From Aquila chrysaetos chrysaetos (Eukaryota; Chordata; Aves; Accipitriformes; Accipitridae), in contig NC_044009.1 of NCBI RefSeq assembly GCF_900496995.4, forward strand, positions 54,338,964-54,402,963: 64,000 nt of DNA. The letters run 5' to 3'. The stretch's first letter is position 1. Each line of letters starts with the position of its first letter. Positions 26,151 to 62,591 of this stretch are shown piece by piece. The notes beneath the pieces are model-generated. The model worked only from the letters and a program-made list of their open reading frames with translations. It was not told where the DNA came from and made no database searches. The position numbers and the translations under genes are program-made.

Positions 26151-26300
26151 GACTAGTCCTCTTACAACCCCTCCTGCATCTGTTATTCCGTCTCAGAAAT
26201 TTTTATTTACTCTCTTATTCTGTTTGGGCCAGAGTAGTCCCCTTGGGACCCCTCCCGAGACCACCCTTGTACCCCATAGTGCTTTTATTGCCCTCTACAC

Positions 26301-31592: not shown

Positions 31593-31899
31593 TAGTATCC
31601 ATGGTCAAGTCCACCCCTCGATCACGAGCCCATCTATATGTTCCATCTCTTCCCTGATGGCCTGAGGTGTCATGGGCCTACCAAACCATAAATAGCTCAC
31701 CCTTATGTTGCCAGTCCAGACCTACCTAAGACACTTCAATCTTAGCAGCCCGATCCACCTGTTGGTTGTTTTAATGTTCTTCAGTGGCCTGACTCTTAGG
31801 TGCGTGAGCATCTACGTGACGTACTTTTACAACCAGATTCTCTAGCTGGGATGCAATATCTTGCTGCAGTGTGACAGCCCAGATGGGTTTGCCTCTGCG

Positions 31900-32490
31900 C
31901 TACCAGTTGCTCTGCTTCCATTGCTGTAACCACCCCCACAGGGCATTTGCCACCATCCATGAGTCAGTATAGAGACAGAGCACTGGTCACTTTTCTCTTT
32001 CAGCAATTTCTAACGCTACCTGGATGGCTTTCACCTCTGCAAACTGACTCGACTCACCTTCTCCTTCAGCAGTTTCTGCAACTTGTTGTATAAGACTCTG
32101 TACAGCAGTATTCCACCTCCGATGTTGTCCCACAATGTGACGGGACCCATCAGTGAACCGGGCATATTGCCTCTCATTTTGTGACAGTTTATTATACAGT
32201 GGGGCCTCTTCAGCATGCGTCACCTCCTCCTCTGGTGATATTCCAAAATCTTTGCCTTCTGGCCAGTCCGTGATCACTTCCAAAATTCCTGGGTGACTGG
32301 GATTTCCTATACGAGCTCGTTGAGTGATCAGTGCGACCCACTTCCTCCATGTGGCATCCGTTGCGTGATGTGTAAAGGAGACCCTCCCTCTGAACGTCCA
32401 ACCCAGAACTGGCAGTCGGGGTGCTAAGAGGAGCTGTGTTTCAGTACCAACCACTTCCGAGGCAGCTCGAACACCTTCATATGCTGCCAA
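31900..32490 (-). pseudogene. Provirus RNase H domain
   Basis: The minus-strand frame 32490-31987 includes FTDGSR and FAEVKAIQ, carrying the first Asp and the Glu of the RNase H active site. A stop after EREK interrupts it, and a further Asp occurs in LYTDSWM just beyond. The upstream part (APRLPVLGW) is the connection to the reverse transcriptase. Confidence 0.8.
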
Positions 32491-32811
32491 TGTCTCTTTT
32501 TCAGTTGGAGTATAGCGGGCCTCGGATCCTCGATACCCCTGACTCCAAAACCCTAGGGGTCGGCCTCGGGTCTCCCCTGGTGCTTTCTGCCAGAGGCTTC
32601 AGGTAGAACCATTCCCCCCAGCTGCAGTATAGAGCACATTTTTAACATCTTGTCCTGCCCGGACTGGCCCAAGGGCTACTGCATGAACACTCTCCTATTT
32701 AATTTGTTCAAAGGCTTGTTGTTGCTCAGGGCCCCATTTAAAATCATTCTTCTTCTGGGTCACTTGATAGAGAGGGCTTGCAATCAGACTGTAATTTGGA
32801 ATATGCATTCT

Positions 32812-33585
32812 CTAAAAACCCACAATGCCTAAGAAAGCTTGTGTTTCCCTTTTACTAGTCAGTGAAGACATAGCTGCTATTTTGTTGATCACATCCATTG
32901 GGATCTGACGACGTCCATCTTGCCATGTTATTCCTAAAAACTGGATGTCCCATGCAGGTCCCTTGACCTTATTTTGTTTTTTGGCAAAACCAGCTTTGAG
33001 AAGGATTTGGATTATTTTCTTCCATTTCTCAAAAACTTTTTCTGCTCTGTTGCCCCATATGGTGATGTCATCAATGTACTGCATGTGTTCCAGAGCTTCA
33101 CCTTTTTCCAGTGCAGTCTGGATTAGTCCATGACAAATGGTGGGGCTGTTTCCACCCCTGGGACAGTCGATTCCAGGTGTACTGGATGCCCTTCCAAGTA
33201 AAAGCAAACTGTGGCTGGTACTCTGCTGCCAGAGGGATTGAGAAAAATGCATTAGCAATGCCAATTGTGGTGTACCACTTGACTGCCTTTGACTCTAGTT
33301 CATATTGAAGTTCTAGCATGTCTGGCATGGCAGCACTCGGTGTCATCGTGACTTCATTCAGGCCACGGTAGTCAACAGTTAGTCTCCACTCTCCATTAGA
33401 CTTTTCACTGGCCATGTGGGGCTGTTAAAGGGTGAGTGAGTTTTACTGATCACTCCTCGGCTCTCCAGTTGACAAATCAACTTGTGGATGGGAATCAGGG
33501 AGCCTTGGTTGGTGCGATATTGCTGCCAGTGCACTGTTGTGGTAGCAATTGGCTGCGGTGATGAAAGAGGCACTCGGGATGACAA
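32812..33585 (-). pseudogene. Provirus reverse transcriptase, motif A changed
   Basis: Read in three minus-strand frames (33585-33379, 33415-33098, 33264-32812). It contains LTVDYRGLNEV, the palm block TIGIANAFFSIPL and the catalytic YIDDI. The motif A position usually occupied by the first catalytic Asp is GGC (Gly). Frameshifts lie near 33400 and 33160-33100. The YIDDI form is common in ERV-L. Confidence 0.87.
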
Positions 33586-33915
33586 CGAGATGGTTCCAAA
33601 GCAACAGCAAAAAAGAGCCCTTTATTGTCTCTTACAGCATACTTATATATTACTAAAACAGGAGCGCATATCTGGCTCGGCTGGGATGTTTTCCAGTCCT
33701 CAGAACAGTTAAAGATAAAAACATTCCATACACATACTTGTGACTGTCTTCAGCCATATCTTCCAGGCATACACCAGGCCATCTTCTGACCTGACCTTGT
33801 AAAACTAGTTCTTCAAAGGCTTGGCAAACATGCAGCACAACAAATTCTAACGTTCACTCTTGAAAACAAATGCCAGGTGTTCTGAGCTGCTCCTCCCACA
33901 ACTGGCACTTGTTGT
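33553..33915 (-). mobile_element. LTR-like insertion inside provirus pol
   Basis: About 360 bases interrupt the region between protease and reverse transcriptase. They are non-coding for the retroviral frame and carry AATAAAGGGCTC on the minus strand (signal at 33621-33626), suggesting a small solo LTR of another family. The ends are approximate and no target duplication was found. Confidence 0.5.
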
Positions 33916-33925
33916 TCTTTGACCC

Positions 33926-34275
33926 TCAGCAATCCCAGAATCGGAAGGGTCCTGAGAGAAACCAGGCAGGGTAAGACAGCTGTTTAATTCTCTCCGTCTC
34001 CAAGGCAGCTATACCAAAATCCCACCGATACCCCTCTGGGTCCTTAAAATACCCTCTCCTGAGGTAGTCTACGCCAAGGATGCACGGAGCCTCTGGGCCA
34101 GTCACAACAGGACGTTTCTGCCACTCATTCCCGGTTAGGCTTACTTCAGCCTCCAATACAGTTAACTGTTGAGATCCCCCTGTCACACCAGAAATACAGA
34201 TGAGTTCTGCCCTTTTATAACTTGGTGGCATTAGAGCGTACTGTGCACCGGTCTCTACTAGAGCCTTGTACTCCT
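33926..34275 (-). pseudogene. Provirus aspartic protease, active-site Asp replaced by Glu
   Basis: On the minus strand ALVETGAQ (near 34262-34239) stands where retropepsins have Asp-Thr-Gly, and ILGVDYLRRG downstream is the conserved C-terminal loop. The Asp-to-Glu change would be expected to inactivate the enzyme. It lies between gag and reverse transcriptase in the usual order. Confidence 0.82.
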
Positions 34276-34281
34276 GCGGGT

Positions 34282-35462
34282 CTAATGTGCCAGGCCATCA
34301 AATCCACACAGTCCAATAAACCCAGTTGTCCCTTTCCTCCACCCGGGTGGAAGCAGGGCCCCTCTAATCCTGGTCAGAGTATTCGTTACTCGCTTGTTGT
34401 AAAACTGACTTAGAAGTCCCTTCAGGAGGATCAGAAGTAAGATTGGCCCTTCTACTCTGTCTGGAAACTGGAGTAGTATTTCTCCTGGAAGAATCCCCTT
34501 TTGTGGTTGTTTTCCCTTGCAAGTCATGTACCCGTGCACTTAGGACCGAGGTTTTCCATCGCACTTCCTCATGTCATCTCCATGGTCACAGAGGTGAAAC
34601 CACAGGGTACCCCCGTGGTGTGTATCTTCTATACTCTCTCTTGAGCAGAGGAATGCTCACTCCTAATAGCTGAGGTACTGGTCTGTACAGGTGGGGCGTA
34701 TGAATTTTTGATCAGTTTGATCAGTTTTTTTTGACTTTTTGGACAGTTTTTCCACAGCCAAGACACAGGCTTATAGGGTGGAAGCGAGATTTTCTTCGTA
34801 TTGCTGGAGTTGGCAAGCCATTTCATCCACCATCGGTGCCTCTTTGTCTTTCCAGGTCAGTACTGCCAATGGTTTGGCATACGATGATGGTGTGCTCTGT
34901 ACAAACTTCCGCCGCATGGGTCGTGTGCATTGGACTTCGTCTGGATCTCTGGGTAATTGTACGTTGTCCGGGTCATAATAAATCATCTCTAGCACAGCTA
35001 ATTCCATCAGGTACTGCATACCTTTCTCCATGGTGGTCCACTTGCCCGGTTGACATAAAACATCTTCCTTGAAGGGGTACATTTCCTTCACGCTTGACAG
35101 GAGTCACCTCCAGAGGCTGAGGGCTTGTGTCCCTTTTCCAATTGCCTTGTCAATGCCACCTTCCCTAGAAAGTGATCCCAGCTGCTTGGCTTCTCTACCC
35201 TCCAGTTCCAGGCTACTAGCCCCATTGTCGCAGCATCAGAGCAGACAGGTGATAATGTGCTCACCTGGTCGATGGCTGAAATCTTTCTGCATATCCCGCA
35301 GCTCACTCAGGGGTAGGGATGGGGTGATTACCTCTGGTTCTGCCTCTTCCTTCTGTTCCCGTGATGACCCTTGTTCACCTTCATCCCTCACTAAGCGAAC
35401 TGATTTTTTTGTATATTTCTTCTTCTGTATGGGGGCAACTGATACTGGCACAGGTTGGTTCT
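34282..35462 (-). pseudogene. Provirus gag, middle and C-terminal part
   Basis: Successive minus-strand frames (35451-35236, 35091-34771, 34826-34629, 34564-34364) give hydrophilic gag-like sequence, including SELRDMQKDFSHRPGEH and CTRPMRRKF. At least three frameshifts separate them. No clear CCHC zinc knuckle was found. Confidence 0.65.
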
Positions 35463-36365
35463 CTAGTTCAGCTGCAGTGCCTGTTGTTGGGGTTGGAGTA
35501 ACTGCAGTACCTGTCGCTGGAGTTGGAGTGGCCGCAGTGCCTGTCGTGGGGGTTGAAGTGTGGCCACAGTGCCTGTCGCTTTGTTGTCAGATCCAGAGAC
35601 CTTCTCTTCCCCTTGAGGGTACTGAATAGTGTTGAAGAGGGCTCGATAGGCATGGGCCAGGCCCCAGCACATTGCAGTGATTTATGTCTCTCTGGAACTG
35701 CCAGGGTGACAGCATAGTTTTTCCAAATATTTTACTGGTTTTTCCGGATTCTGCACTTGTTCAGGGGTGAAATTCCAAAACACTGGAGGTGTCCACTGTC
35801 CTAGGTATTTGCCCATACTGTCCCACACACCCTGCTGCTCATAATTATCCAGCCTCGGGGCAGATCTCTGGGTGATATTCTTAAACAGTTGTTTAACCCT
35901 AAACAAGACCTGAACCACGTTCAGGAACATGCTAGCTCCTAGCAATAGGACCACACTAGTTTCAACATCCCAGGGATATTCAAAATTTTCAAAACTCTCA
36001 AACGCTATTGTAATTAGCCTGGAGGAGAAGGGGAAGGTGAAGAAAGGTGTCTTGCTCATAGATTGGCTCTCCAAGGAGGAAAGGTGAAGGGTGTAATTAT
36101 TAATAGTTCCCAACAGATGGCTCCCGAAGTACAGAGGTGATGACAATGCTGAGTACAAATACCAGATTAGTCCCATGACCGATAAGTTTATCATACCATA
36201 AGCCACTGTTACACAATACAGCAAAATGAAAACCTTAATCCACGTCCCATGGATGATAAGCAGCAGCACAGGGACTATATATGGCAAGCAAGGTGATACA
36301 TAACACAACTGGAAGAACGACCGCCACAACTCTAAAAGCCAATAAATCAACATTGTGACCAGCAA
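35463..36365 (-). pseudogene. Provirus 5' ORF (gag N-terminus) with several predicted membrane segments
   Basis: From Met at 36365 the minus-strand frame has about four hydrophobic stretches: YIVPVLLLIIHG, IKVFILLYCVTVAYG, LSVMGLIWYLYSAL and VETSVVLLLGASMFLNVV. A hydrophilic gag-like part with WTPPVFWNFTPEQ follows. A TAA stop near 35680 is followed by further open sequence in the same frame, ending in an imperfect tandem of about 30 bases (35470-35580) encoding a Gln/Pro/Leu-rich linker. A multi-pass start is unusual for retroviral Gag. Confidence 0.7.
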
Positions 36366-42420: not shown

Positions 42421-43330
42421 AACGCCTTGCCTCGTTGGCGTAGTGCCAGTCAAGCACTTCTTGTCTTGCACTTGAAGCTTAAAGTGTGGATCTGTCTTGT
42501 GTGTTTTGCCTCATAGATGTTTCTGGACGGTCATCTTTGCAGCAGTGATCCAGGCTGCATCAGTAGCTCTTCTCTTGTGAGTTCTGTTTCTGTGGGACCT
42601 TCTTCTGGGGGTTTCTTCCCCATGTCCTTACGTGGATCTTGGATCTTGGCGCCCAGCTTCTCACACATCCATCATCCCCGGTTTGATGGCAGCTTTCTGC
42701 CATGGGCTGTAGCATTTGACTCTTCTCTGGAGCTGCCATAGAGCATCAGTACTGTGCTGTCACGGAACTGCAGGTCTTCTTTGCCATTGACGTTTTCCCC
42801 CTGGGAGTCATTCTTCTTGTGTGTGGTCTTCTCGCATCTTTTGGTCACATTGTAGTGTCTGTGTGCAGCATTGGTCTGTGTGTGTGTTTGGGTTGGAGCT
42901 GTCCTGTCTGGTGGTGTAGCAACAGTACTGTGAGGGGCAGTGTAGCAGTACCATGCTGCACATGCTCTGTGTTGATCTGTCCAGTTTTTTTTGCATTGGA
43001 CCATATGGTCCATCTCTGGGTGAGTGGCCAGCAGCAGCCGCGTGACTTGTTTTATATTGTTTCTATTTCAGATGCAGAGTGACAAGCTGCGTGTCAAAGG
43101 GCAATGGAGGAGGCCAGTGGAGTGCTGTAAGAAGGTGGGCTAGCATGTGGTATGGGAGGGCAAGTGCAATTCTTGGTGGCTATGGCTAGCTTATGCTTTT
43201 TTTTTGTTTTATTTTGAAGGTGTGAAGCTACATGTAAAGCAAGCTGCCTGCACTGGAGCTCACTCAGGCAAGGTGAGCAATGAAGAGGTCTGACGTGGTT
43301 ACTGTTGAGGTGTCATGTTGCTGCAGATTG
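42421..43330 (+). other. Exon-like module cluster, partial copy 3
   Basis: 43072-43134 (63 nt, after TTTCTATTTCAG and before GTGGGC) and 43220-43272 (53 nt, before GTGAGC) resemble pieces of the earlier copies; the 53-nt piece equals 41283-41335 in length. The segment 42421-43030 between them has no recognised feature. Confidence 0.4.
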
Positions 43331-46300
43331 AATCATCCATCTGTCTCTGTTTCTCTGTCCTTCTTGTCTTTCCCCCCATTTCTCTGTCCTGTTCCTCCTT
43401 CAGTTTTTTTGTTCTCTGTCACTCTGTCCTTCTCCCGTCACTGTTTTTCCTCACTGCATCTCTGTCCTGCAGCCCAGTGCTGTTTTTTTCTTCTCCATCT
43501 ATCTGTCCCACTGCTCATCCTAGGCTTTTTCCCCTCCATCTCTGTCCTGCTCCCTGTCTTATTTTTGCCTGTCTTTCACTTTGTCCTGCCTCTGTGTCCG
43601 TTTTTTCTCTCTGTCGCCTTGTCTTGTTCCCTGTCCCTGTCCTTCTCTGACAATCTGTGTCCTGCTCCTTGTCCTTCTTTTCCCTCCTCCTTCTGTCCCC
43701 CATCCTTCTTTCTTTTTTGTCTTTCTATCCTTCTGCCTCAATGCTTCTTTCTCCATCTCTGTCCTGCTCCCAGCCCCTTGTTTCCTCTCACTGTCCCTCT
43801 GTCCTGCTTCCTGTCCCTTTTATTTCTGTCTTTATTTCTCTGTCCTGTTGCCTGTCCTGTCATTTCTTGCTATATCTCCCTGTCCAGCTGGCTCTCCCTT
43901 TTTTTGCTTTCTCTCCCTGTCTGTCCTGCTCCCTGGCCTTTTTTTGTCTTCCTCTGTCCTCTAGCCCATTGCTGGTTTGGGTCTTTTTTTCCCTTCTCGG
44001 TCTCTTTGTACAGCTCTGACCCTTTATTTCTCAATCCCTTTGTCCTGTTCCCTGTCCTTTTTCTCTCTCTGTCTGTATGTTCTGTGTCCTGTCACTGTCT
44101 TTGTCCCTCCTTTCTTCTCCTCGCCCCCCCATTTCTGTATCCCTCTGTCCTAATCACTGATCCTACATTTTCTTGCTCCATCTCTCTGCAGGGTTCCTCA
44201 TCCCTATTTTTCTTTATTTTTCTAGCTCTCTGACCTTTTATTTCTACCCTTGTCTCTCTCTCTGCTCCTCAGTCTTCTCCCTTGTCTTATTTTTCTCTTT
44301 CTAGTCCTCAGTTCTGCTCCCCATCACTGTGTTTTCTTCCTCCATTTCTCTGTCCTGCTCCCCATCCCTCTCTTTCTTTCTCCATCCTGCTGTGCTGCTC
44401 CCTGGTGCCCCACCCCTGCCCCACCTTGTGTCACTCATCTCTCCACCCCTCTGTCCTAGTCCCCATCCCTAATCTTCCTTTTCCATTTCTCTGTCCTGCT
44501 TTTGGTCCCTGTTTTTTCTCTGGCTCCATCTCCCTGTCATTCTCCCTGTTGTTCTTGCTTGCTGTCTATCCCAGTATCCTGCTCCCCATCCCTCTCTTTT
44601 TCTCTGTATCCCATTTTCTTGCTCCCTGTCCCTCACTTGTTTTCTGTATCCCTCACTCATTCCTCCTGCCCTTCCTTCCCTGTGCCCTCCTGCCTCTGGC
44701 CTGCTGTTTGTCACAGGTTTGTCTTTCTCCCGCTTTCTGTCTGGGTTCTGTCACTCTCTTTCTCTCTCTGTTCCTCTGTCCTTCCTCCAACCTGTATTTT
44801 CCTCTCTCTGTCCCTCTGCCCCTAATGCTTCTTTCTCCATCTCAGTCCTGCTCTCTGCCCCCTTTTCCCTCTCCCTGTCTATCTGTCCTGCTTCCTCTCC
44901 CTGGTTATTCTGCCTTTATTCCTCTGTCCTGCTGCCTGTCTCATTGTTTCTAGTTATAGCCCCCTGTCCAGCCAGCTGTCCGTTTTTTCCTTTCTATCTT
45001 CCCTACTCTGGCCCTACTTTTTCTTCCTCTGTGTCTATCTGGCAGCCCATCACTGGTTTTTTTCCTTCTCTATCTCTTTGTCTTAATCTGCATCTGGTTC
45101 CCCCCGCTGTCCCCAGTGCCTCTGTCCTGTTCCTTGTCCTGCTTTTTGTCTCTCTGTGTCTTGCACTCTATCCCCATCTTTTTCTCTCTCTCCCTCCTTC
45201 CTTTTCCCTCCTCTCTGTCCAGCAGCCCATTACCATTTTTTCCCTTCTCCATCTCTTAATCTACATCCGTTCTGCCCCCCTGCCCCAGTCTCTGCTTTTT
45301 GTCTCTCCATGTCCTGCGCTCTATCCTCGTCTTTCTCTCTCCCTCCTTCCTTTTCCCTCCTTCTTTTTCTCTGCATCCCTTTGCCCTGTTGCTCATCAGT
45401 ATTTTTCCCTTCCATTCGTCTGTCCTGCTCCCTGTCCCTTACTTCTCTGTCAGTCCCTCTGTCCTGTTGCCTATCATTATTTTTGCTGTCTGCATCCCAC
45501 TGCCCTGGTTCCCATTCATCTCTTTTGGCTCTATCCTCATGTCCTGCTCCCCAGCAGTATTTTTTTCTTTCTCCAGCTCTCTGACCTGCTCCCCGCCCTG
45601 CTGTTTTTCTCTCTGTCATTCTTTCCACTTCCCTGTACCTCTCTCTCTGCAACCTTGTGTCCTGCTTCCTGTCCCTCTCTGTGTATATCCCACTGTCCTG
45701 GTCCCTGTCCCTCTCTTTGCCTCTCTATCCCTCTGTCCTTGTCCTTGTCCCTGTTTTTACTTTCTCCATCTGTCTGTCCTGCTGCCCATCTCTGTCCAGT
45801 TCCCTTTCTGTTTTTTTTCCTCTCTTGGTTACTCTGCTTTTCTTCCTGTCCCTATTTTTTTTCTTTCCTCATCCCTCTGCCCTGCTCTGTGTTCTGTCCC
45901 TCCGACTCCTGCAGTGTGCTGCTGTGTGTTACCCGTCCTTCTCCCTGTTGATTTTTTTTCCCATATTGCTCTATTTTTCCGTCCTGCACCCTAGAAGTAT
46001 TTTTTTGTTCTCTGTATTTCTGTTCTGCCCATCATGATTTTGACGTTCTCCATTTCTCTCTCCTGCTCCCCACCCTTCCCTTTCTCCCTCTGTCATTCTT
46101 TCCTCTTCCCTATACTTCTGCTTTTCTGTGTTCTTGCATCCCACTCTGTCCATCCCTCCATCTCTTTCCATCAGTCTGTCTTGCTCCCCATCCCTCTTTT
46201 TCTTTCTACCTTTCTGATGTCATGTCCCCCCATCTCCACTTTTGTCCCAGTCTTTCTCTCTACATGCTCCTGTCATTCTCCTCCTCTTGCTCTTCTTGCT

Positions 46301-47480
46301 TTTTCTCACTTTTCCTCTATCCTGCTGCCCATCACTATTTTTTCCTCCTCCATCCCTTTGTCCTGCTCCCTGTCCACATCAATCTTTCCCTTTTGTTCTG
46401 CATCCAGTGTTTCTTTGTTTTCTCAATTTCAGTCCTTTTCTCCACACATTTTTCTCTCTGCTCCTCAGTCCTTCTCTCTCATCTTATTTTTCCCTTTCTG
46501 CCATCCCTCTCTTTCTCTGTGACCCTCTGCACCGTTCCTTTTCTTTTCTTTCTCCAATTCTGTGTCTTACCTGTCCCCCTCTCACTGTCTCTCTTCCTCT
46601 GTCCTGCTCCCTGCCCCTATCATTTATTGCTTTACCTCTCTGTCCTGCTCTCTGTCCCCATTTTCTCTCATGCTCCATCTCTCTGTCATTCTCTCTGTTG
46701 CTCTCGTTGGCTTTCCATCCCAGCGTCCTGCTCCCTGACCCTCTCTCTTTTGCAGTATGCTACTTTCTGGCTCCCTGTCCCTCACCTGTTTTCTGTATCC
46801 CTCTGTCTTTCCTCCTGTCTTTCCTTGTCCCTCTGGCCTGCTATGCCTCACTGTCTTTTTTCTTTCTTTCTCCATCTCTCTGCCTCGGTCCCGTCAATCT
46901 CCTCCTCTCTTAGTCTCTAACATTTCTTTCTCCATCTCTGCCCTACTCCCTGTCCCTTTTCTCTTATTTTCTGTCCCCTCCATCCTCCCCCTAACGTTTT
47001 GACTGTATAACTCCATACCACTTCCTATCCCATCGTTTCTCTCTATATCCCTCTGCCCAGCTTGCTGTCCCATTATTCTCCTCTGTCCTGCTCCCTGGCC
47101 TTGTTTCTCATCCTGCAGTCCATCACTTTTTTTTCTTTCTTCATCTCTTTAGTCTGATCCATCTGTCTCTCTTTTTTTCCTCACCCCTCCCTGGCTTGTT
47201 CCCTGTCTCTTTCTGTCTCTCCCTCCTTCCTTATTCCTGTAACTCAATTTCTCTCTTTATCCATCTGTTCTGCTACCTGCTTGTCACTTTCTCTCTCTCT
47301 CCCTCCCTCTGTTCTGCTCCCTGACCCTGTTTTTCTTTCACCATGTCCCTGCAGGGCTCTTCATCCCTTTTTTATTGATTTCTCCATCTCACTGTCCTTT
47401 TCCTTGTACCTTTCCTTCTCTGCTCCTCAGTCCGTCTCCCTCAGCTTATTTTTCTCTTTCTGTTCCTCTGTCCTGCTCCC
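43331..47480 (+). repeat. Pyrimidine-rich satellite, CT-rich part
   Basis: Over 4 kb of strongly pyrimidine-biased + strand built from words such as CTCTGTCCTGCTCCCTGTCCC and TTTCTCCATCTCTCTGTC, recurring about every 40-50 bases. Lack of A and G removes stop codons, so very long ORFs (up to 410 codons) appear in every + frame. They are Ser/Leu/Cys/Pro/Phe repeats without domains and are not called as genes. Confidence 0.85.
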
Positions 47481-47640
47481 CATCACGGTATGTTTGTTCT
47501 TGGTATCTGCTGTTCCAGTAACAACTGCTGAGTTGTTCCAAGGGAAGGGCAAGTGTACAGGCACCGATATCCATAGCAAACTCACTCCTGGGACATACAT
47601 GCATTAAGGAATAAACACTTGCTGTCTCCTTTGCACTTGG
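47481..47640 (+). other. Boundary segment with poly(A) signal
   Basis: Non-repetitive sequence after the satellite, with AATAAACA near 47610. It might end a transcript coming from the left; no ORF is supported. Confidence 0.3.
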
Positions 47641-48880
47641 TGAGTGGCTGTCAGAGATCCCAGGGGGAGCAGGTTACATAGTGGGTGTAAGGGGAAATGG
47701 CTGTAGTTGTGGGCTGGGGCTGGAGGAGCCCCAGGTGGGGCCAGTGAGGCTGATGGTGATGGTGCTTCTGGGGCATGCCTGCCTGAGAGTGCTGATGAGC
47801 TGCAAGGATGTTTCCAACTGACTAGTGCAACAGATTGATGGTCGGTTGGAGTCAGGCCTCATCAGGGCAGCTCCCAGGGGTTTTCTGAGAGCTGGAGGAG
47901 AGGAAGCAGGAAGAGGAGCAGGAGATGGCTGCCCCCACCCCCTGGAAAAGGTACTGGGTGCCTCTCCAACTCAACAAAACTCCTTCTGCCCTGCTCGCCC
48001 CATGCAGCTGTGCCCAGCTACAGCACCTCCCCTGAAGCCTGTCCTGTAGCCACAGACTGCCCCCAAATCCTGTCCTCATGGCAGCAAGTTGGTCTTTGAA
48101 TATGCTTTATTGCACCATAAATGAAGGCCACTGTTAGCATTAGTTCAGGGAAACAATGGCATCTCCAGAAGCTCCTGCAGAAGGAGGGGTTCGTGCTTGA
48201 GGAGAACTACAGTCAACACTGTGGATAACAGTTGCTTGTTCTTTCCCTCTCCCAGAGGCAGCACTGAGGACTCAGTTGTCGGTTCCTCTCCAGGGATGTT
48301 GTTGACTGCCTCTGGCTCAGTTTTGTGTGGGTTGCCTTTGGTCTCATTCTCCTAATGGCATGGGTGAAAAGGGACAGCTGGAGCACTTACTGGCTGTGGA
48401 CAGGAGCTGCAGTGGCTGAAGCTGGAGAGACCAGAAAAAGGTAAAGCAGCTGAAGAATAAAATGAAAGGGATTTGGCCAGCAGCTGCCTCCAGCTGCAGA
48501 CAGGAGACAGCCTGCCTCTCCAGGCGAGGAAGGATCCCTCTTAGTGTAGTCCTCAGAAGATCTGATCACTCATGTCCATGGCAGGGTCTGTACGCATAAC
48601 CAGAAGCACAGTATGGGCATGTAGTGTGTGCGCATGTGAGGCTGCGTACCTAGGAAGCCTCATATTGTAAGAGCTGTAAGACACCAATCTATTCTCTTAG
48701 GTGGATGACAGTCAAGCGACCAGACCTACAGAGGAGGAAGGGAGGGGGGGCGGAGATTGAGAGAGAGGGAGAGAAGGATGCATCTGAACTGTCAAATTCT
48801 CCCAGCAGCTCCAAGAGCGGGAGCTGCGGTGAGTCCTGGACCCCTGGGGCTGTGTTGCCCCTCTTCTGCATCCTCGTCCC
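47641..48880 (+). repeat. Three-copy module, copy 1, with splice-flanked exon 48701-48838
   Basis: Homologous in order and words to 59690-60480 and, partly, to 50690-51200. Shared blocks include CTCCAGAAGC...GCAGAAGGAGGGG, GGCTGAAGCTGGAGAG, GAGGAAGGATCCCTC and an exon-like 48701-48838 (CTCTTAG before, GTGAGT after). That exon reads E/K/R-rich, then SELSNSPSSSKSGSC. The module is followed by pyrimidine satellite, as in the other copies. Function unknown. Confidence 0.6.
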
Positions 48881-49619
48881 CTCCCTTCTCTTTCTCTCAC
48901 TGCTGTCATTTTTTTCACTTCCCTGCACCTCTTCCTCTCCCGTTTGCCAAGTCCCCCTCTTTCTCTGTCATTCTACCTCTCTGTTTTCTTTTTCTCTCTG
49001 CACTTCTGTCCCATTCCCCGTCCCTCTTTTTTTTGTCCTCTGTCTCTTTCCTGCAGTCCGTCATTATATTTGTCTTTCTCCATCTCTCTGTCTGTCTTCC
49101 TATCCCCCTTTTTTTTAATTTCTCCCCATCTGCCCTTTAGCCCTTCACAATTCCCACTGCCCTCACCTCTCTGTCTGGGGCTGTGTCTCTATTTTTAAAT
49201 TCCTCTCTCTCTGCCCTGTATTCTAGATATACTTTTTCATTCTTAGATTTTCTTGTTCCAGGTCCCTGTCCCTATGTTTTAATTTCTTCCCTCTCTGTGC
49301 CACAGCCTATTTTTGTCCTTGTTGTTCTCTCTGTCTGGCTCCCTGTCCCTATTCTTCAATTCCTCTGTCTCTCCCCTTCAGCTCACTGAGGTTTTTTGGT
49401 ATTTCTCAGTTGGTCTCTGTCTACCTCACTGTCCCCTTTTCCAATTCCTCTCTGCCCCGTGGCCCATCACTAATCTTTGTTTTTCTCCATCTCAGTCTGG
49501 TTCCCTATCAATTCCTCCTCTCTGGCCTGTAGCCCATCACTATTTCCTTCATGCCCCTCCCTCTGTGTCTCCCTTTCCCTATTTTTCAACCCCCCCTCTG
49601 CCCTGTAGCCAATCGCTGT
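48881..49619 (+). repeat. Pyrimidine-rich satellite, intermediate part
   Basis: Continues the satellite family with TTTTTCAATTCCTCTCTGCC and GTAGCCCATCACTATT words; more T and A than the block to the left. The ORFs are by-products. Confidence 0.8.
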
Positions 49620-52028: not shown

Positions 52029-54002
52029 CCTATTAATTTTTTTCTGTTTTCCTCTCTGCAGCTCCCTTAAGCTATTTTTTTAATGCTTTCCTGTGTTTCT
52101 TGTACCCTGTTGTATTCTAATTTTTCTTTCTACGTTTCCCTCTCTCTGGCACCCTGTCCCTATTTTTTAATTCTTCCCTCTGTCCTGTACCGTGTCACTT
52201 TTAAAGTTTTCTTTCTATGTTTCCTTCTATCTATCTCCCTGTCCCTATTTTTTAATTATTTCCTGTGTTTATTGTACCCAGTTGTTTTAAAAACTTTCTT
52301 ACTATGGTTCCTTCTATTGATCTTCCTGTCCCTGTTTTTTTTTAATATTCCTGTGTTTCTTGTACCAGATTGCTTTTTAAATTTCCTTTCTACATTGTCC
52401 TCTATCCATCTCCTTGTCCCTATGTTTTAATTCTTGTCCATGTGTCTTGTACTCGGTTGCTTTTTAAAATTCCCTCTATGTCTCCCTCTATCTGGCTCCC
52501 TTTCTTGATTTTTTTTTTTTTTTTTTTAAATTCTTCTCTATATTTCTTGTACCCCATTGCTATTTAATTTATCTTTCAGCGATTCCCTTTATCTGGCTCC
52601 CTTTCCCTAAATTTTAACTCCTCCCTTTCTTCCATATACCCTGTCACTTTAAAAATTTTCTTTCAATGTTTCCTTCTATTCTCATTGCTGTTCCTATTTT
52701 GTAATTATTTCCTGTGTTTCTTGTAGCCTATTGCTTTAAAATATTTCTTTCTTTGTCTCCCTCTATCTGACTCCCTGTCTCTATTTTTTAATTCCTCCCT
52801 TTCTGTCCTGTACCCAGTTGCTTTAAAAATTTTCTTTCTATGTCCCCATTTATTTAGTTTGCTATACTCCATCAATTTAAAATTTTGTTTCTATGGCTAC
52901 TTTTATCCAGTTCACTGTCTTTATTTTCTAATTCTCTCCTGTCTGTCCCATATCCTGTCACTTCTTTAATTTTCTTTCTATTTCTACTTTTATTGAGCTC
53001 CCTATCTGTATTTTTCAGTTCTTTCCTGGGTTGTGTACCCTGTTGCTTTTAAATTTACTTGTATGTGTGTGTCTATTTTTTCCCCTATTCTTATTTTTTA
53101 ATTTATTCTTGTCTTTCCTTAAAGCTGTCTCATTTTAAATTTTCTTTCTACGTCAAGGTTTACCCAGTTTGCTGTCCCTATTTTTTATGTTTTCCTGTCT
53201 ATCCTGTACCCCGTCATTTTAAAATTTTTTTTCCATGTCTACTTTAACCAATTCACTGTCTGTCTTTTTTATTTGTTTCTTGTTGGTCCTGTACCCCATT
53301 GCTTTTGAACTTTTCTTCCTATGTTTCTCTGTATTTTTTTCCCTATTCTTATTTTGTAACTTTTTCTTGTCTTTCCTCAATGCCTCTGCTTTTATAATTT
53401 TATTCCTGTGTCTCTATCACCCTACCCTTATTTTTAATTTTTTTCTTGTCTTACCTTAATGCCTTTGCTTTTATAATCTTCTGTGTCAAGTTTTATCCAG
53501 TTTTCTCTCCCCATTTTCAATTTTTTTTGTGCTTGTCCTTTACCCAGTTTACCCAGTTAAATTTCCTGTCTACTTTGACCAATTCACTGTCTTTATTTTT
53601 ACATTTTTTTCCTGTCTGTCCTGAACCCTGTTGTTTTTTCAATTTGCATTTTATGTCTACTTTTATCAAGCTCCCTATCCATATTTTTTAATTTATTCCT
53701 GTCTGTGGTATACCCTGTCACTTTTAAAATTATATTTCCATGTGTGCATCTCTCCTTTACCCTGTCCTTATTTCTTAATTTTTTCTTTTCTTTCTTAATG
53801 CCATTGCTTATTAAATTTTCTTTCTATGTCAATATTTATGTTTGCTGTTCCTATTTTTTATTGTTTTCCTGTCTTTCCTATACCCTGCCCCTTTTAAATT
53901 TTCTTCCTATGTCTCCGTTTTTATATCTAGTTTTCTGTCCCTATTTTAATTTTTTTTCCTGTGTTTCCTGTACCCTGTAAATTCTTAGATTTTATTTCTG
54001 TG
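52029..54002 (+). repeat. Satellite, T-rich part, about 80-bp period
   Basis: Repeating words CTGTCCCTATTTTTTAATTC, CCTGTACCCTGTCACTTTTA and ATTTTCTTTCTATGTCTAC recur about every 75-90 bases. It is the same satellite lineage as 43-49 kb, with more A and T. Short ORFs through it are by-products. Confidence 0.8.
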
Positions 54003-54601
54003 TGCGCTGGTTTTGGCTGGGATAGAGTTTAATTTTTTGTCGTAGTAGCTGGTATGGTGCTATGTTTTGGATTTGTGACCAAAGCAGTGTTGGTAGCAGA
54101 GGGATGCGTTAGTCATGGCTGAGCGGTGCTTGCACAGCGCCAAGGGCTGTTCTGCTCCTCACCTTGCCCTGCCAGCCAGCAGGCTGGGGATGCACAAGGA
54201 GCTCGGCGGGGGGACACAGCCGGGACAGCTGACCCCAACTGACCAAAGGGTTATCCCGTACCATACAGCATCCTGCTCCGCAATCAAAGCTGGGGGTGGA
54301 GGTTGATGGTGGGGTGCTGCTCAGGACTGGCTGGGCATTGGTTGGATTGGTGGTGAGCAACTGTTTTCACTTGCATTGGTTGGTTTTCTTTCCCGTTTTT
54401 CTTTCTTGTCGTGTGTCGTCCCCCCCCCCCCCCCCCCCCCCCCCCCAAAAAAAATTCTTTTAAAAGTATTAAACTGTTTTTATATCATCTTATGAGCTTC
54501 TTTCTCACATTTGCCCTTCCAATTTGCCCCCCATCCCACTGTGGGGGAGTGAGCGAGCAGCTCTATGGTGCTTAGTTGCCAGCCGGGGTTAAACCATGAT
54601 G
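54003..54601 (+). mobile_element. Solo LTR, ERV-L-like family A, opposite orientation
   Basis: Starts TGCGCTGGTTTTGGCTGGG and ends GGGGTTAAACCATGATG, the reverse complement of the other family A copies, so sense is +. The flanks CTGTG (53998-54002) and CTACG (54602-54606) may be a mutated 5-bp duplication. A run of 27 C at 54420-54446 followed by 8 A lies inside. Confidence 0.8.
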
Positions 54602-55090
54602 CTACGTCTACTTTTATGAAGCTGCCTATTACTGTTTTTAATTATTTCCTGTCTGTCGTGTACCCTGTCACTTTTAAAATTTGCTTTCTATGTCTACTTT
54701 TATCCAGTTCACTGTATTTTTTAATTTTTTCCTTTCTGTCCTGTACCCAATCACTTCAAAAATTTTCCTTCTATGTCTACTTCGATCAAGCTGTGTATTG
54801 CTGTTTTCTTAATTCTTTCCTGGCTATTATGTACCCTGTCACTTTTTAAATTTTCTTTCTATGTCTACTTTAACCTATTAATTGTCTGTATTTTTTAAGT
54901 TATTCCTGTCTGTCCTGTACCATCTTGCTTTTAAATTTTTCTATGTCTCTGTTTGCTGTCACTATTTTTTAATTCTTTCCCATATGTCCTGTAACCAGTC
55001 GCTTTTAAAATTTTCTTTCTATGTCTAGTTTTATTCAGTTGGCTCTCTTAATTTTTTCAATTATGTCCTGTCTGTTCTGTAGCATATTGG
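54602..55090 (+). repeat. Satellite, T-rich part, distal
   Basis: The same period and words as before the LTR (GTACCCTGTCACTTTTAAAA, TTTCTATGTCTACTTTTATC). Confidence 0.8.
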
Positions 55091-56663: not shown

Positions 56664-56765
56664 GCATTTTGGATTTGTGACCAAAGCAGTGTTGGTAGCA
56701 GAGGGATGTGTTAGTCATGGCTGAGCGGTGCTTGCACAGCGCTGAGGGCTGTTCTGCTCCTCGCA
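56664..56765 (+). mobile_element. Family A LTR fragment
   Basis: About 100 bases almost identical to 54065-54165 (TTTGTGACCAAAGCAGTGTT and CTGAGCGGTGCTTGCACAGC), then diverging. It is a truncated piece of the same LTR subfamily. Confidence 0.75.
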
Positions 56766-57699
56766 GAAAAGTGCGGCTGTGACGCTTGCTGGGGGGGAGC
56801 GGCAAGGAGTGCGGAGCCACGCTCCTGTACGGAGCAAAGGTGGAACCTCCAGGGCTCTGCGGTCATCTGCCGAGAACATCTACTATCCCGACGCGCCGCT
56901 TTGCTTTCCCTGCTTCACGTCTAATTACTTTGCACGCCGGAGGGCGGGGCGGTAAGTAACACCGTGCAGCGTCTCTTCGATAAGAGACAAGCCCCGCACA
57001 AGAAGCCTTGCGTGCGTGCAGGATTAGGAGAGCAGAGTTGTGATAGCACAGAGGTGAGGAAAGGTGCGCCCCACCCCAACAGAGCCCCAGGATCGCCAGG
57101 GTATCGCTCGCTTGCAGGTGGGCCGCTCGCATCTGGTCCGCTGGGATGCGCCGTTTCCTGCTGAACAGAGCTGCCCCCCTGGCACGAGGCAGCTTTGGGT
57201 CTCTTGTGGCCTGCCTTCAGGCTGTCACCTAACCAGGCGTTATTATTTTTTTTTTAATCTCTCGCCAGCATCTGTTGGACTGGCTGCTGTCACTCCCAGA
57301 ACCCTGATGCTGCATGCAGACGGATACAGCAGTCCCTGGGGCTTGGTCAGGGGAAACCCCCCGTCCCCCTGCCCTTGCAGGTTCCCTGTGCTGCTTCTCC
57401 TGTCTAGATAATGGGGTGGGGGGGCAGGGACAGAAGCGATGGCCCGAATTGTCTGTTCTTTGTGCTAGACTGCTGTAACCGCTCCAGCCACTCGGTGCTT
57501 TTTGGAAGGGAAGCAATGAAGGTGAGCTGCCCGGGCTGCGAGTGGGGAAAGGGCAGGGCAATGTAAGCCCCGTGCCCCCAGTAAGTAGTTACCGCCTGTG
57601 GCTGGTCTCTACTGGGTTCAGCTGTCAGTCATCTCTCCTGCAGCTGATGCTCAGAAGAGGATCGGTGCGGGGATGCGGATGCTGCTGCGCGGCGAGCGA
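56766..57699. other. GC-rich flank of the repeat array, no gene assigned
   Basis: Contains donor/acceptor-like words but no ORF with recognisable similarity. It leads into the CpG-dense array. Confidence 0.4.
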
Positions 57700-58870
57700 A
57701 GGCGGGAACTGCGTTCTGGAGGCGCGCATAGCGCGGTGGCGCGCGTGGCTGGGCCCCCGCTGTTGCCTGGCAACCGAAGCGGTGTACGGCAGGTGCGGAG
57801 GCGCGCAGGCGCGCTGCGCCTTTTACGGCGCTCGCCGCTGTTACCTAGCAACCACAGCGCGACACGGCCTCTCGGCAACCGCGCATGCGCAGCGGCGCGG
57901 TTTACGGCGCCGCCGCTGTTGCCTAGCAACCAAGACGCTGTACGGCAGCTGGGGAGGAGCGCATGCGCGGTGCGCCTTTTACGGCGCTCGCCGCTGTTGC
58001 CTAGCAACCACAGCGCGACAAGGCGTCTCGGCAACCGCGCATGTGCGGCGGCGCGCTTTATGGCGTACGTGCTGTTGCCTAGCAACCAAGACGCTGTACG
58101 GCACCTGGGGAGGCGTGCATGCGCGCTGCGCCTTTTACGGCTCTCGCCGCTGTTGCCTAGCAACCATAGCGCGACACGGCGTCTCGGCAACTGCGCATGC
58201 GCGGCGCGCGGTTTAACGGCGCTCCTGCTGTTGCCTGGCAACAAAGACTCTGCACGGCAAGCGGGGACCGCACAATGCGCCCTGCGCCTTTTATTACGGC
58301 GCTCGCCGCTGTTGCCCTAGCAACCACAGACGCGACACGGGGCGTCCTTCGGCAACCCGCGCATGCGCAGCGCGCGCTTTATTACGTGAGCTCCTGTCTG
58401 TTGCCTAGCACCAAGACGCTGTACGGCGCTGGGGGATGCACTCATGCCGCGCTGCGCCTTTTACGGCTCTCGCCGCTTGTTGCCTATCAACATAGCGCGC
58501 AAACTGCGTCTCGGAAACCGCGCATCGCGGCGGCGCTGTTTGACGGCGCTCCTGCTTTGCCTAGCAACCCAAGGCGCTGTACGGCAGCTGGGGAGGCGCG
58601 CATGCGCGGTGTGCCTTTTTACGGCGCTTGCCGCTGTTGCCTAGCAACCACAGCGCGACACGGCGTCTCGGCAACCGCGCATGCGCGGCGGCGCGCTTTA
58701 CGGCGCTCCTGCTGTTGCCTGGCAACCAAAACGCCGTACTGGCTGTCGGGAGCCGCGCATGCGCGGTGGCGCGTTTCGGCCGCCCTCCTGCTGTTGCCTG
58801 GCAACCACGACGCCGTGCAGCTGCTCGGGAGCCGCGCATGCGCGGTGGCGGCGCGTTTCGCCAGCGCTCT
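57700..58870 (+). promoter_or_regulatory. Tandem 78-bp array of RFX X-box and NRF1-like sites (156-bp A-B higher-order repeat)
   Basis: X-boxes of the form GTTGCCTAGCAAC or GTTGCCTGGCAAC start at 57762, 57840, 57918, 57996, 58074, 58152, 58230, 58311, 58479, 58636, 58714 and 58793. Broken copies lie near 58400 and 58557. Spacing is 78 bases almost throughout. Units alternate: A units continue ACCACAGCGCGACACGGCG, B units ACCAAGACGCTGTACGGCA. Most end with GCGCATGCGC, the NRF1-type palindrome. Because 78 is divisible by three, several frames stay open on both strands with a 26-residue period; these ORFs are probably not genes. RFX factors drive ciliary and germline genes and NRF1 drives CpG-island promoters, so an amplified promoter or enhancer is the simplest reading. 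Confidence 0.85.
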
Positions 58871-59590
58871 CTTCCGCCGCCTATTGACCAAAGTTCGGTA
58901 CTGCAGCTGGGAGCCGCGCATGCGCGCTGGCGCGCCGCGCCAAGCCCTCGCAGCTGCTGCCGTGCGACCAATGTTCGGTACTGCAGCTCGGAGGCTGCGA
59001 GTGCGCGGGGCTGCCCCTGTCCTGCACGTGCCGTCCGACGGTAACGGCAATGCGGCACCGGCGGGAGGTGCCGCCGCGCTCGTTGCTTCCTCCCGGTAAG
59101 GAAACGCCGCTGCCGCCCCAGGCGCGCGGTGTCGCCGGCCGCTGGGCGCGCAAAGCGCGGAACCGCAGCGCCGGGGCCGCCCCTGGGCACGCGCGTCCCG
59201 CCGTCCGCTCGCTGCTGCTGCCGCCTCGTGGCCGAAGCGCGGAACTGCAGCGCCGGCACGGCACAGGTGCGCAGCAGCAGCGCCGCCGCCGCCTCCGCTG
59301 CTGCCGCCTTGTGGCCAAAGCGCGGTACTGCAGCCCGGCGGTCGCGCGCCGGCTCCCACCCCTCCGGCGCATGCGCGGTCCCCGGGGGCAGCGGGCGAGC
59401 GCCGGGACCGCGGGTGAGGCGAGCGATCTCCTCCGGCGGGGGCGAGGGCGAGGGGTGCCTCCTGCCCGCTGGCCGCCCGGGGCTGCCGGGCCGGGAAAGC
59501 TGCGAAGCGGCCGCCGCGGCAGGCTCCCGGTCCGCCGGAGGCGAGCCGGGCCGGGGAGTTCCCCGAGAGCCGCCGGTAGAAGGGAAGAGG
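58871..59590 (+). promoter_or_regulatory. CpG island adjoining the array, probable promoter
   Basis: Very CpG-dense. Two diverged units without an X-box continue (58870-59000: TTCGGTACTGCAGCTGGGAG and TTCGGTACTGCAGCTCGGAG), followed by GC-rich GCTGCTGCCGCCTTGTGGCC pairs near 59214 and 59298. No TATA box. It leads into the exon-bearing module, consistent with initiation here on the + strand, but no RNA evidence is available. Confidence 0.5.
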
Positions 59591-60480
59591 GGATGGAGGC
59601 GCGCACCCCCCAGGCGCGGCCAGCGGGCGCCTCCCCGAGTCGCCAGAGCTCCCCCGGCCGCCCCGCTCGGCCCGTGCGGCTGCCCCCAGCTCCAGCCCCT
59701 CCCCTGGAGCCTGTGCTGTGGCCGCAGGCAGCCCCCGAGCCCTGTCGTGAGGGCAGCGAGCTGGCCCTCAGTGCATCTCCAGAAGCCTCTGCAGAAGGAG
59801 GGGCTCTGGCCAGGGGCGATCTGCGGTAATGAGTCGATGCTTCTCTTTCGCAGAGGCTGCGCTGAGGGCATGGTTGTCTCTTCCTCCCTTGGGGATGCCG
59901 TTGACTGCAGCAGCCTCAGGCTTGCGTGGGCTGTCTCTGCCTGGCCTCCCTCTCCGCGCGGGCGCCGGGAGCACAAAGGGACAGGCGGGGCACTTACCGG
60001 CTGTGGGCAGGAGCTGCTGCGGCTGAAGCTGGAGAGGCCAGAGAAAGGTAGAGAAGAAGAAATGGAAGGCCGGCCGGCCGGCAGCTGCCTCCCGCTGCAG
60101 GCAAGAGAGAGCCTGCCTCTCCGCGTGTGGAAGGATCCCTCCTCGTAGTCCGCAGCAGGTCAGACTGCCGAGGTGCACTGCAGGGTCCGTATGCAGCACC
60201 GACGGTGCCGTACGGCCACGTAGTGTGCGAGCGAGCGAGGCTCTGTGCCTAGGAAGCCTCGTCTTGCAAGACCTGTGAGACACGTGTTCTCCTAGGGGGA
60301 GGAGGACAGCCGTGCAGCCGGAGTTACAGCAGAGGAGGGGAGCGGGAGAGGAGCAGAAAGAAGCGTCTGAACTGGCAAATTCTCCTGGCAGCGCCAAGAA
60401 CAAGAGCTGTGGTGAGCCTCGGGGCCCTGTCTCTCTCCCCTCTTCTGCGTTCCGGTCCCTCCCTGGCCCTGCCCGGCCCC
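59591..60480 (+). repeat. Three-copy module, copy 3, with exon-like segments
   Basis: An ATG at 59593 opens a 79-codon frame ending at 59829, Pro/Ala-rich (RLPPAPAPPLEPVLWPQ) with a degraded counterpart near 47.9-48.05 kb. An exon-like 60296-60411 (CCTAG before, GTGAGC after) encodes EASELANSPGSAKNKSC, matching 48701-48838. It directly follows the CpG island, so this may be the most intact member and the source of the others. Coding status is uncertain. Confidence 0.5.
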
Positions 60481-60498
60481 CTCTCTTTCCCACACCGC

Positions 60499-60502
<4 letters not shown>

Positions 60503-60533
<31 letters not shown>
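60503..60533 (+). repeat. Poly-T tract
   Basis: A run of 31 T. Confidence 0.95.
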
Positions 60534-60555
60534 CTCCTTTCCTCCCTTGTACCTC

Positions 60556-61213
60556 TGATACTGAAAAGCCGGTCGAAGAAACTCTCTAAGGCTCGTTTTG
60601 GAGTTTTAGAAAGCAGGCATTCTTCATTGCAGCGCTGGATGCACGGGGGATAGTTCCACCTAGCGTGCGTGCCACAGGTTTAGCACACACAGGTTCTATA
60701 GAATAACTAATTGCATATTAATCAGATTAGTATACGCATACATAAAAATGATGGCAACCGATTATCACAGTACTGCCTACATCCAATCATGCGCAATGAA
60801 GGATCCGTTTGAGACGAAGGGCTGCTTTTGCGACCACCGGCCCATTTGAAGTTCTTGCTGGCTGTCCTTGAAGTCGTTATTCTTGTCCTTGTTCTTTGAT
60901 CTTGAAGCTTAACGCAGTTTCAATCGCACGTGGTCAGTTTCAGCATTGTTCTCATCTAGTGCACAGGAACATCTAGTCCTAAGAGCAAAGAACTGCAAAA
61001 CTTACGAGTAAATACCTCTGTTGGTTAACTGCTTGGCTATACTTTTGTCTACTGTTTCAATCATTGTGTTAGTGTAAGATTTCTAATACTTATTTACCAA
61101 ATCTCACTTTTACAGTCACCTAGCAGCAAACCAGTTTCCACGGCTGGTATAAAACATTAAAACCATCCAAATATTTAGACGTGCCGTACAGAATGTATGG
61201 ACATATGCTATCA
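60556..61213 (-). mobile_element. LTR, family C, copy 2
   Basis: Starts TGATACTGAAAAGCCGGTCG and follows copy 1 (26301-26940) over its whole length with scattered substitutions. The poly(A) signal position reads TTCATT on the + strand instead of TTTATT, so the signal is lost. No target duplication. Confidence 0.75.
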
Positions 61214-61454
61214 GAGGTGTCCCAGGGGCAGGGGGAGCGTCGGGGGGGGGGGGTCCGAGCCCCGGAGCGGACTCGCTGGCAGGACTCGTTAGGCGCGCGA
61301 CTGGCTGAACGAACACTGGCCGTCCGTCCCCGTTGCCATCCGGGCTGCGTTTGCGCTCCCTTTGCACGGGGCGAGGGGCCGTGAGGGAGCCCAGGGGAGG
61401 AGGAGGTGAGGCGCTGGGGGGGTCGGGCCATGCCCCCCCTGTTCCTGCTGGGCT

Positions 61455-62591
61455 CCAGCTGTTGCAAATATTCTGGTAAAGAAATCAAAATTTAATCACG
61501 TAGAAGAGTTAGGTTTGATTAAGAAGTAAAATTGTGAAGCATAACGTATAGGATTGTTAAGTGTGAAATATATTAACCTGATTCGTGTCAATATAAAACA
61601 ACGATAGGGCCGCATGGTGAAATGTGACCCTCTCTGCATATGTAATCTTTAACCGTTTTGCTTGATCTTGTATAACCGTAGGCCTAAGGGAAGTAGGAGA
61701 GTATGTATATAGTTCTTGCTTCCTGCAAAAGCCATATAACAGTAGGGAATTACAAAAGTTGGAAACGAAATAAAATCAGACATCAAGTAGAAATCGAAAA
61801 ATACTTCACACGGTCTCTCGGAAGTAGCGGAATCCTATAGTTGCAAAGGTTTAAAGAAAAAGGGGGGGGGGATTGATAGAGAGAACAAACTGCTTATTGC
61901 TTAATGATTGTCTCTCTGTAACTTTACATACCCAGGACTGGTGTTTGTCAAGGATTAAGCCTGTCAGAGACTGGTACTTAGGAATGATGAGCAAGAAGGA
62001 ACCAAGAGCGATCACAAGACTTAATTAAGTGTCCGATGAATTTACGATCTTGTTAAGGAAACACAAGTAGAGGCCTTGCTTGAATAGATAAGGCCGGAAA
62101 AGATAAGAACTCCTGCCTTTTGTTCCCATCCTTGTAGATAATTTAGCTTAAACTAACCGTACGGTGCTATACCACTAATGAGAACTTAGATAATAAGAAC
62201 ACTAACAAGCACGAAGGTATCAAAACATGTAAAGGACCATACTGCGCAGAATCACCTGAGGAGGGTCAAATAGCGGACAAGTGAGGAAGACTATGGAAGA
62301 CCACCAGAGGACTCCTGAAGACCACCAGAGACCTTCAATGCGCCTGCGTAAAGGACATTTACATATGTTAATAGTTTCCCGGGAAAACTAATGAATATGT
62401 ATAACATTTCTCAGGAATCTAGTGAATATGTATGTAGAACCTGTACTTAACCTGCACAATTAGACCTGACGGGGTGTGCCTTGGTAGAGCAGAGGCTCCC
62501 GGTGCACCCAGCGCTGTTTGCTTGCCTCTATTCATATAATAAATTGTAAACTTTAATTAGAATCCTGTTTTGGACGTGGTCATTTTTCACA
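61455..62591 (+). mobile_element. Gamma-like retroviral LTR, first copy
   Basis: The 3' part has GGTGCACCCAGCGCTG, then an ATAATAAATTG signal near 62538 and TTTTTCACA at the end. This layout is shared with the LTR that follows. The left boundary (TGTTGCAAATATTC) is approximate. The internal stretch is AT-rich and non-coding. Confidence 0.5.

Follow-up and report, generated by a model that had tools for sequence, protein, structure and literature searches.

A dimeric tandem repeat of predicted RFX and NRF1 motifs recurs at golden eagle chromosome ends

Why would a tandem repeat close to a chromosome end be built from promoter motifs, and is it confined to one place? The array that raises this question lies in a 64-kb stretch of DNA (the window) with which chromosome 6 of the golden eagle ends on the right. 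Its units carry an X-box and, mostly, the palindrome GCGCATGCGC, which we take to be motifs of RFX proteins and of NRF1, respectively. A sequence-only reading of the window had described X-boxes at 78-base spacing within a 156-bp higher-order repeat, in which two unit types alternate strictly for at least six dimers. Tandem Repeats Finder, a check it suggested, recovered both periods (78 over 57757-58807, score 719; 156 over 57723-58850, score 1321), and the stretch 57733-58230 matched itself at 0.85 at lag 156 vs. 0.61 at lag 78. The two types, A and B, alternate without exception across the 12 units starting from 57762 to 58636. This assignment is the best among all 924 equal splits, with identities of 0.84 and 0.84 inside the types and 0.70 across them. 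The two units that follow, at 58714 and 58793, form a third type, C, the former being 79% identical to the A reference and likewise to the B reference. Units without an X-box extend distally to ~59386, spaced mostly 80-83 bp apart. Because both margins hold such units (Table 1), the X-box appears either to have spread inside an older repeat or to have been lost at the margins.

X-box starts are spaced exactly 78 bases apart six times, and then 81, 89, 79, 76, 81, 78, and 79. Under the pattern GTNRCC-N0to3-RGYAAC, 11 of the 14 X-boxes are intact, the one at 58555 is off at its first base only, and those at 58400 and 58479 are broken. The two broken boxes of the earlier reading therefore stand, and its count of 12 intact ones was nearly right. 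Allowing up to three mismatches, GTTGCCTAGCAACC gave 21 matches in the window vs. 5.8 in shuffles, and none of 100 shuffles reached 21. The canonical X-box GTTGCCATGGCAAC was uninformative, with 6 matches vs. 3.3 expected and 11 of 100 shuffles reaching 6. With at most one mismatch, the palindrome GCGCATGCGC matched 13 times in the window vs. 0.43 in shuffles. It is exact in 8 of the 14 units and within one mismatch in 11, in agreement with the claim that most units hold an NRF1-like palindrome.

Both broken X-boxes sit in an indel-rich stretch, 58230-58635, and are therefore probably sequence errors. The five consecutive units there show 5, 9, 5, 5, and 3 gap events, and one B unit among them has 13 indel bases vs. 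2 substitutions. By contrast, 116 units of other loci average 0.77 gap events (72 without any, maximum 5). The remaining units compared in the window copy show 0 to 2, two of these units being the references themselves. Uncorrected consensus error in a long-read assembly explains these indels most simply.

Table 1. Features of the array and of the duplicated segment around it (window coordinates)
Feature	Position	Strand	Basis or remark
Proximal duplicon part	56779..57690	+	Matched at 27/27 other loci (C16R, C26L, C9i partly)
CpG-rich region, array and island beyond	57500..59750		CpG o/e 1.2-1.3 in array, ~0.8-1.2 beyond
Diverged unit without X-box, left edge (family D5)	57684..57761	+	
Six AB dimers (12 units, nominally 78 bp; ~78+78 bp per dimer), higher-order repeat proper	57762..58713	+	TRF 78/156; A/B split best of 924
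Fourteen X-box positions (predicted RFX motif)	57762..58806	+	11 intact by degenerate pattern; starts 57762, 57840, 57918, 57996, 58074, 58152, 58230, 58311, 58400, 58479, 58555, 58636, 58714, 58793
GCGCATGCGC palindromes (predicted NRF1 motif), exact	57881, 57959, 58193, 58359, 58598, 58677, 58755, 58834, 58916		Within 57803..58925
GCGCATGCGC palindromes, one mismatch	57803, 58037, 58115		Pattern scan
Five units with 27 gap events	58230..58635	+	Both broken X-boxes fall here; probably an error in the consensus sequence
Two C monomers, X-box and NRF1 palindrome each; telomere-side end of X-box array	58714..58875	+	Neither A nor B type
Two diverged units without X-box	58876..59035	+	NRF1 palindrome at 58916-58925
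Three more diverged units without X-box	59132..59386	+	CTCF-like sequences 59218-59231, 59301-59314 (within chance)
Island segment of long subfamily	59110..59920	+	Absent at six loci: C13R, C16L, C19L, C104, C89, C37R
Distal duplicon part	59920..62591	+	Common to decreasing number of ends
Dispersed repeat inside distal duplicon, putatively LTR-like	60555..61213		By copy number and length; best 40 of 1524 candidates scored

The array is not confined to the window. Searching the eagle genome with 57918-58230 gave 87 matches, which we grouped into 30 places; 28 of these loci were examined, that is, all except C104 near 46 kb and a minus-strand piece of C92. Setting aside unplaced C89, C92, and C104, there are 25 chromosomal places. 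Of these, 22 are no more than 60 kb from an end and together occupy 21 of the 54 ends; end margins of this width make up 0.32% of the sequence. Distance from array to sequence end has a median of 7 kb (range 0.8-57 kb). Nineteen of the 22 terminal places point outward, on the plus strand at right ends and on the minus strand at left ends, although these terminal and orientation counts come from copies that duplicate one another and so have limited independence. A query with the CpG island gave a similar picture among the best 40 of 86 candidates: 33 of 35 chromosomal places are terminal and 30 of those 33 point outward (unplaced C92, C93, C95, and C104 left out). The island adds at least 9 ends, so that array or island is present on at least 30 of 54. 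Neither the array query nor the island query (best 40 of 86) matched C27, the putative W contig. A genome-wide count of exact GTTGCCTRGCAACC pairs 69-89 bp apart gave 78, at array loci, and none for the reversed pattern. The array is not a locally amplified enhancer of one gene, given its recurrence in 30 places, the chromosomal ones mostly terminal and pointing outward.

The three inward-pointing array copies are at the right end of C22 (two places) and the left end of C26, and together with an inward island copy at the right end of C4 they could reflect local inversions or scaffolding errors. The three interior array copies (C24 at 7.73 and 7.77 Mb, C9 at 28.25 Mb), like an interior island copy at C5:37.19 Mb, may be scars of fusion or inversion. 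Such a scar may also be present at C4:54501932-54501993, an interstitial run that is the only site in the genome with six exact TTAGGG repeats.

The alternating monomer order extends across the genome as well. Adjacent pairs at the 28 loci are AB 63 times, BA 50, BB 9, and AA 2, and C is the distal-most typed unit at 22 loci, with CC at 15. In total, these loci hold 173 intact degenerate X-boxes and 203 exact GCGCATGCGC palindromes. Centromeric alpha-satellite likewise consists of alternating monomers amplified as a dimer, with CENP-B boxes as the protein-binding box. However, both eagle monomers carry the box, and the arrays are subtelomeric, CpG-rich, and short, with 1 to 14 intact X-boxes per locus and ~1 kb at most rather than tens of kilobases.

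These arrays share a wider plan: a run of (AB)n, capped at those 22 loci by C monomers toward the telomere, and then usually the CpG island. The blocks flanking the array are mostly 82-99% identical between ends. At most other loci, mutual homology runs 0.5-3 kb proximal of the point matching window position 56779, which argues for a duplicated subtelomeric segment and against a transposon with fixed ends; the window copy and C13R have a common flank of their own, unlike the other loci. We are confident that the array is the core of a golden eagle subtelomeric duplicon and that its motifs are under constraint. Further island copies (82-90% identity, best 40 of 86) lie 12-20 kb inward at C10R, C12R, C14R, C16L, C18L, C21L, and C37R, and window positions 47910-48915, ~65% similar to 59579-60510, may be an old copy of the island's distal part. 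Counts from a query with 60555-61900 are lower bounds (best 40 of 1524 candidates). Chromosome sequences terminate in repeated DNA, and the tails of C6L, C8L, and C18L resemble retroviral pol by eye.

The CpG island claimed beside the array is there, but the claimed exon-bearing module is not supported. Nine open reading frames in and around the array match no Pfam family, and nine frames are each intact in just 1 to 10 loci, leading us to reject a protein-coding module. A spliced retrocopy was considered because the gap corresponding to 59110-59920 at six loci looks intron-like. However, the donor-like GTAAG (once GTGAG) at 59096-59100 on the plus strand persists in the six short-subfamily loci compared, so the segment is an insertion or deletion and not an intron. 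No structured RNA or tRNA was found in the window by Rfam gathering scores or a tRNA scan.

We then asked which parts of the unit vary least. A unit profile gave 274 hits in the 28 loci, 204 of them near-complete and counted. Mismatch to consensus was 0.029 in the X-box (without column 8) and 0.029 in the NRF1 palindrome vs. 0.211 in other columns, where CpG positions showed 0.162 and non-CpG positions 0.238. The same held within each type: X-box and NRF1 mismatch was 0.045 and 0.030 vs. 0.126 elsewhere in A, 0.024 and 0.031 vs. 0.107 in B, and 0.013 and 0.026 vs. 0.144 in C. Per-type P values range from 1e-5 to 1e-6 but are merely indicative because the units share ancestry and have been homogenized by exchange. 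In the within-type average, no 14-column window of the 74 varies less than the X-box, and no 10-column window of the 74 less than the palindrome. The A and B references differ by 14 substitutions, none of them in the 24 motif columns (P 0.0026); P was 0.009 to 0.10 for five further reference pairs.

Because the profile could favor units with intact motifs, we repeated the comparison with the motifs masked. Among the 159 units used of 219 hits, mismatch was 0.045 in the X-box, 0.030 in the NRF1 palindrome, and 0.175 in the rest (P 6e-5), with the X-box intact in 121 of 159 and the palindrome exact in 121 of 159. The X-box base that varies freely is column 8, which is the purine of RGYAAC and a position where RFX tolerates either A or G. 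It reads G in 108 and A in 96 of the 204 units, and A in 87, G in 70, T in 1, and C in 1 under masking. The spacer T and final CC of the X-box are conserved as well, though the RFX consensus does not demand them. The sequence-only reading of a dimeric higher-order repeat of promoter motifs is supported; the repeat lies within CpG-island DNA, and the two motifs are its conserved part.

The array also retains its CpGs. CpG o/e is 1.27 in the window array vs. 0.25 in window positions 1-55000, and 0.97-1.38 in the arrays of the 28 loci. This high ratio and lack of CpG decay suggest that the array is unmethylated in the germ line. Methylation of an NRF1 site inhibits NRF1 binding (PMC6600276), so a methylation-sensitive NRF1 and a CpG-retaining array would fit together.

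How close these arrays come to telomeres can be judged at one end. In the first kilobase of C19, many degenerate CCCTAA units mixed with CCGTGA-like variants lie at 179-880, on the strand expected of a left end, and G-rich DNA follows within C19:1-5000, which is probably telomere-proximal sequence. A 20-base telomere pattern matches at C19:213-232 (minus strand) and also in the interiors of C9, C18, and C25. C19L is the only array-bearing end with telomere-like repeats found; its array points toward them and lies 57 kb away, not close to TTAGGG as expected of a TERRA promoter, and at the other ends the assembly stops short of the telomere. None of the 28 loci examined contains a TTAGGG pair. 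The motifs themselves give no direction because both are palindromic. GC skew was dropped as a sign of direction since it changes sign past the array, being negative at +500, positive from +600 to +800, and negative again at +900. CTCF-like sequences lie distal to the array at 16 of 28 loci by exact pattern, and the window has such sequences at 59218 and 59301. A CTCF array was rejected because the window's 19 matches vs. 13.6 are within chance (11 of 100 shuffles reach 19).

What might such a segment do? Human TERRA promoters, on around twenty chromosome ends, are CpG-rich 61-29-37 repeats whose 29-bp repeats carry NRF1 sites and contribute the dominant share of promoter activity; the rise of TERRA after demethylation requires NRF1, and a CTCF site lies ~300 bp downstream (PMC6600276). 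The eagle array resembles them in its short tandem repeats within a CpG island at many ends (21 of 54), and in the NRF1 sites of its unit (a likeness at the motif level only). It may also resemble them in orientation to the telomere, since the order of array and then island points outward at 19 of 22 terminal places, and perhaps in a CTCF-like sequence a few hundred bases beyond, which in the window is within chance. It differs in that its 78-bp units form AB dimers, each unit combining an RFX X-box with a perfect NRF1 palindrome, and in not lying beside telomere repeats at the checkable end. By analogy with this plan, the array is most likely a promoter working like those of human TERRA. We stop short of calling it a TERRA promoter, since at the sole end allowing the test it does not lie close to the telomere.

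We propose that the array is the multi-site promoter or enhancer core of the duplicon. NRF1 and RFX proteins would bind its repeated sites, and once bound could help to protect the island from germline methylation. Noncoding transcription would start at the array and run mainly telomere-ward, in the manner of human TERRA promoters. Taken as a whole, including the transcription, we regard this proposal as evenly poised between right and wrong.

Other explanations account for parts of the same evidence. A literal avian TERRA promoter, with transcripts reading from the array into the telomere tract at most ends, would suit the subtelomeric, mostly outward, NRF1-bearing tandem CpG repeats, and telomere repeats are transcribed toward the chromosome end on the lampbrush chromosomes of bird oocytes (PMC3648425). 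It is nonetheless unlikely, since TERRA measures 100 b to 10 kb (PMC6600276), short of the distance at C19L, and at C16L and C16R the sequence runs 33 and 18 kb past the array without an exact telomere run. We also doubt that the array is purely a chromatin element, at which bound RFX and NRF1, possibly with CTCF, would hold a stretch of the subtelomere open or insulated and no dedicated transcript would be made. Motif constraint and the lack of CpG decay need binding and not transcription, and CTCF-like sequences do recur distally, but their number in the window is within chance and the island around them is not unusually conserved.

Shared ancestry offers another account. The array could be a passive minisatellite of the subtelomere that arose from an old promoter and was carried between chromosome ends by exchange, its motifs persisting through recent common ancestry and homogenization. 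The high identity of the array-side blocks fits this, and local amplification does occur, since 32 of 204 units have their nearest relative in the same locus (8.7 expected). However, ancestry and homogenization would not single out two motifs, and variation in the motif columns is 4-7 times lower than elsewhere in the unit, within each type and under the motif-blind control as well, which makes the passive account improbable. Mouse L1 has promoter monomers at its 5' end, and the array could similarly be the tandem monomers of a transposable element, with the shared distal block forming the body of the element. In an initial comparison of seven ends, homology to the window copy starts sharply near 56764-56779 at most of them, as this would predict. 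Yet that sharp start is peculiar to the window copy and C13R, the copies are terminal and mostly in one orientation with just three interior chromosomal places, and no reading frame is kept or Pfam match found beside the array, so we consider a transposable element highly unlikely. The promoter or enhancer proposal has its own difficulties in the 3 of 22 terminal copies that point inward, the 3 of 25 that are interior, and the six loci without the distal island segment.

A bolder version is that eagles, and perhaps birds widely, use this dimeric RFX-NRF1 repeat as an end promoter of their own. Its two sites, spread over at least 21 of 54 ends, would be under selection, and germline RNA would start there toward the telomere. 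We find this conceivable but rather doubtful. If true, birds and humans would have separately reached NRF1-bearing tandem CpG arrays for end transcription, and RFX would be what the avian lineage added. Among transcribed subtelomeric repeats of birds, the nearest in the literature searched is PO41, which has a 41-bp unit, occurs in chicken and quail, and yields transcripts from both strands (PMC4301066). Like the eagle array, it is a subtelomeric tandem repeat and a candidate source of noncoding RNA, but its unit is 41 bp rather than 78/156, and no RFX or NRF1 site is named in the description of it that we used for comparison (PMC4301066). Searches for tandem arrays of X-box, RFX, or NRF1 sites, and for golden eagle and Accipitridae satellites, found no such array in the same literature, in which subscription journals are mostly missing, and no account of the promoters behind telomere-ward transcription in bird oocytes turned up there either. 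The array is a concrete candidate for such a promoter, or for its neighbor, and would show that NRF1-bearing tandem repeats came into use separately at chromosome ends. It also allows constraint on two named transcription-factor sites to be read from ~200 units of a single genome.

Several other features of the window were seen along the way. A RING-variant gene of the MARCH type, presumably MARCHF7, has exons at 8011-9243 and 9484-9693 on the plus strand (RINGv E 7.4e-16) and lies ~50 kb from the chromosome end. A second GC- and CpG-rich stretch at 25500-26935 has a 60-bp tandem repeat followed by an 87% copy of the dispersed repeat at 60555-61211. Broken reading frames at 30898-36365 (minus strand) look like an endogenous retrovirus by eye. 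The strand is strongly pyrimidine-rich at 43000-47600 (AT skew ~-0.7, GC skew to -0.6), with ~40-bp repeats, and AT-rich minisatellites with an 83-88 bp period occupy 52076-55081.
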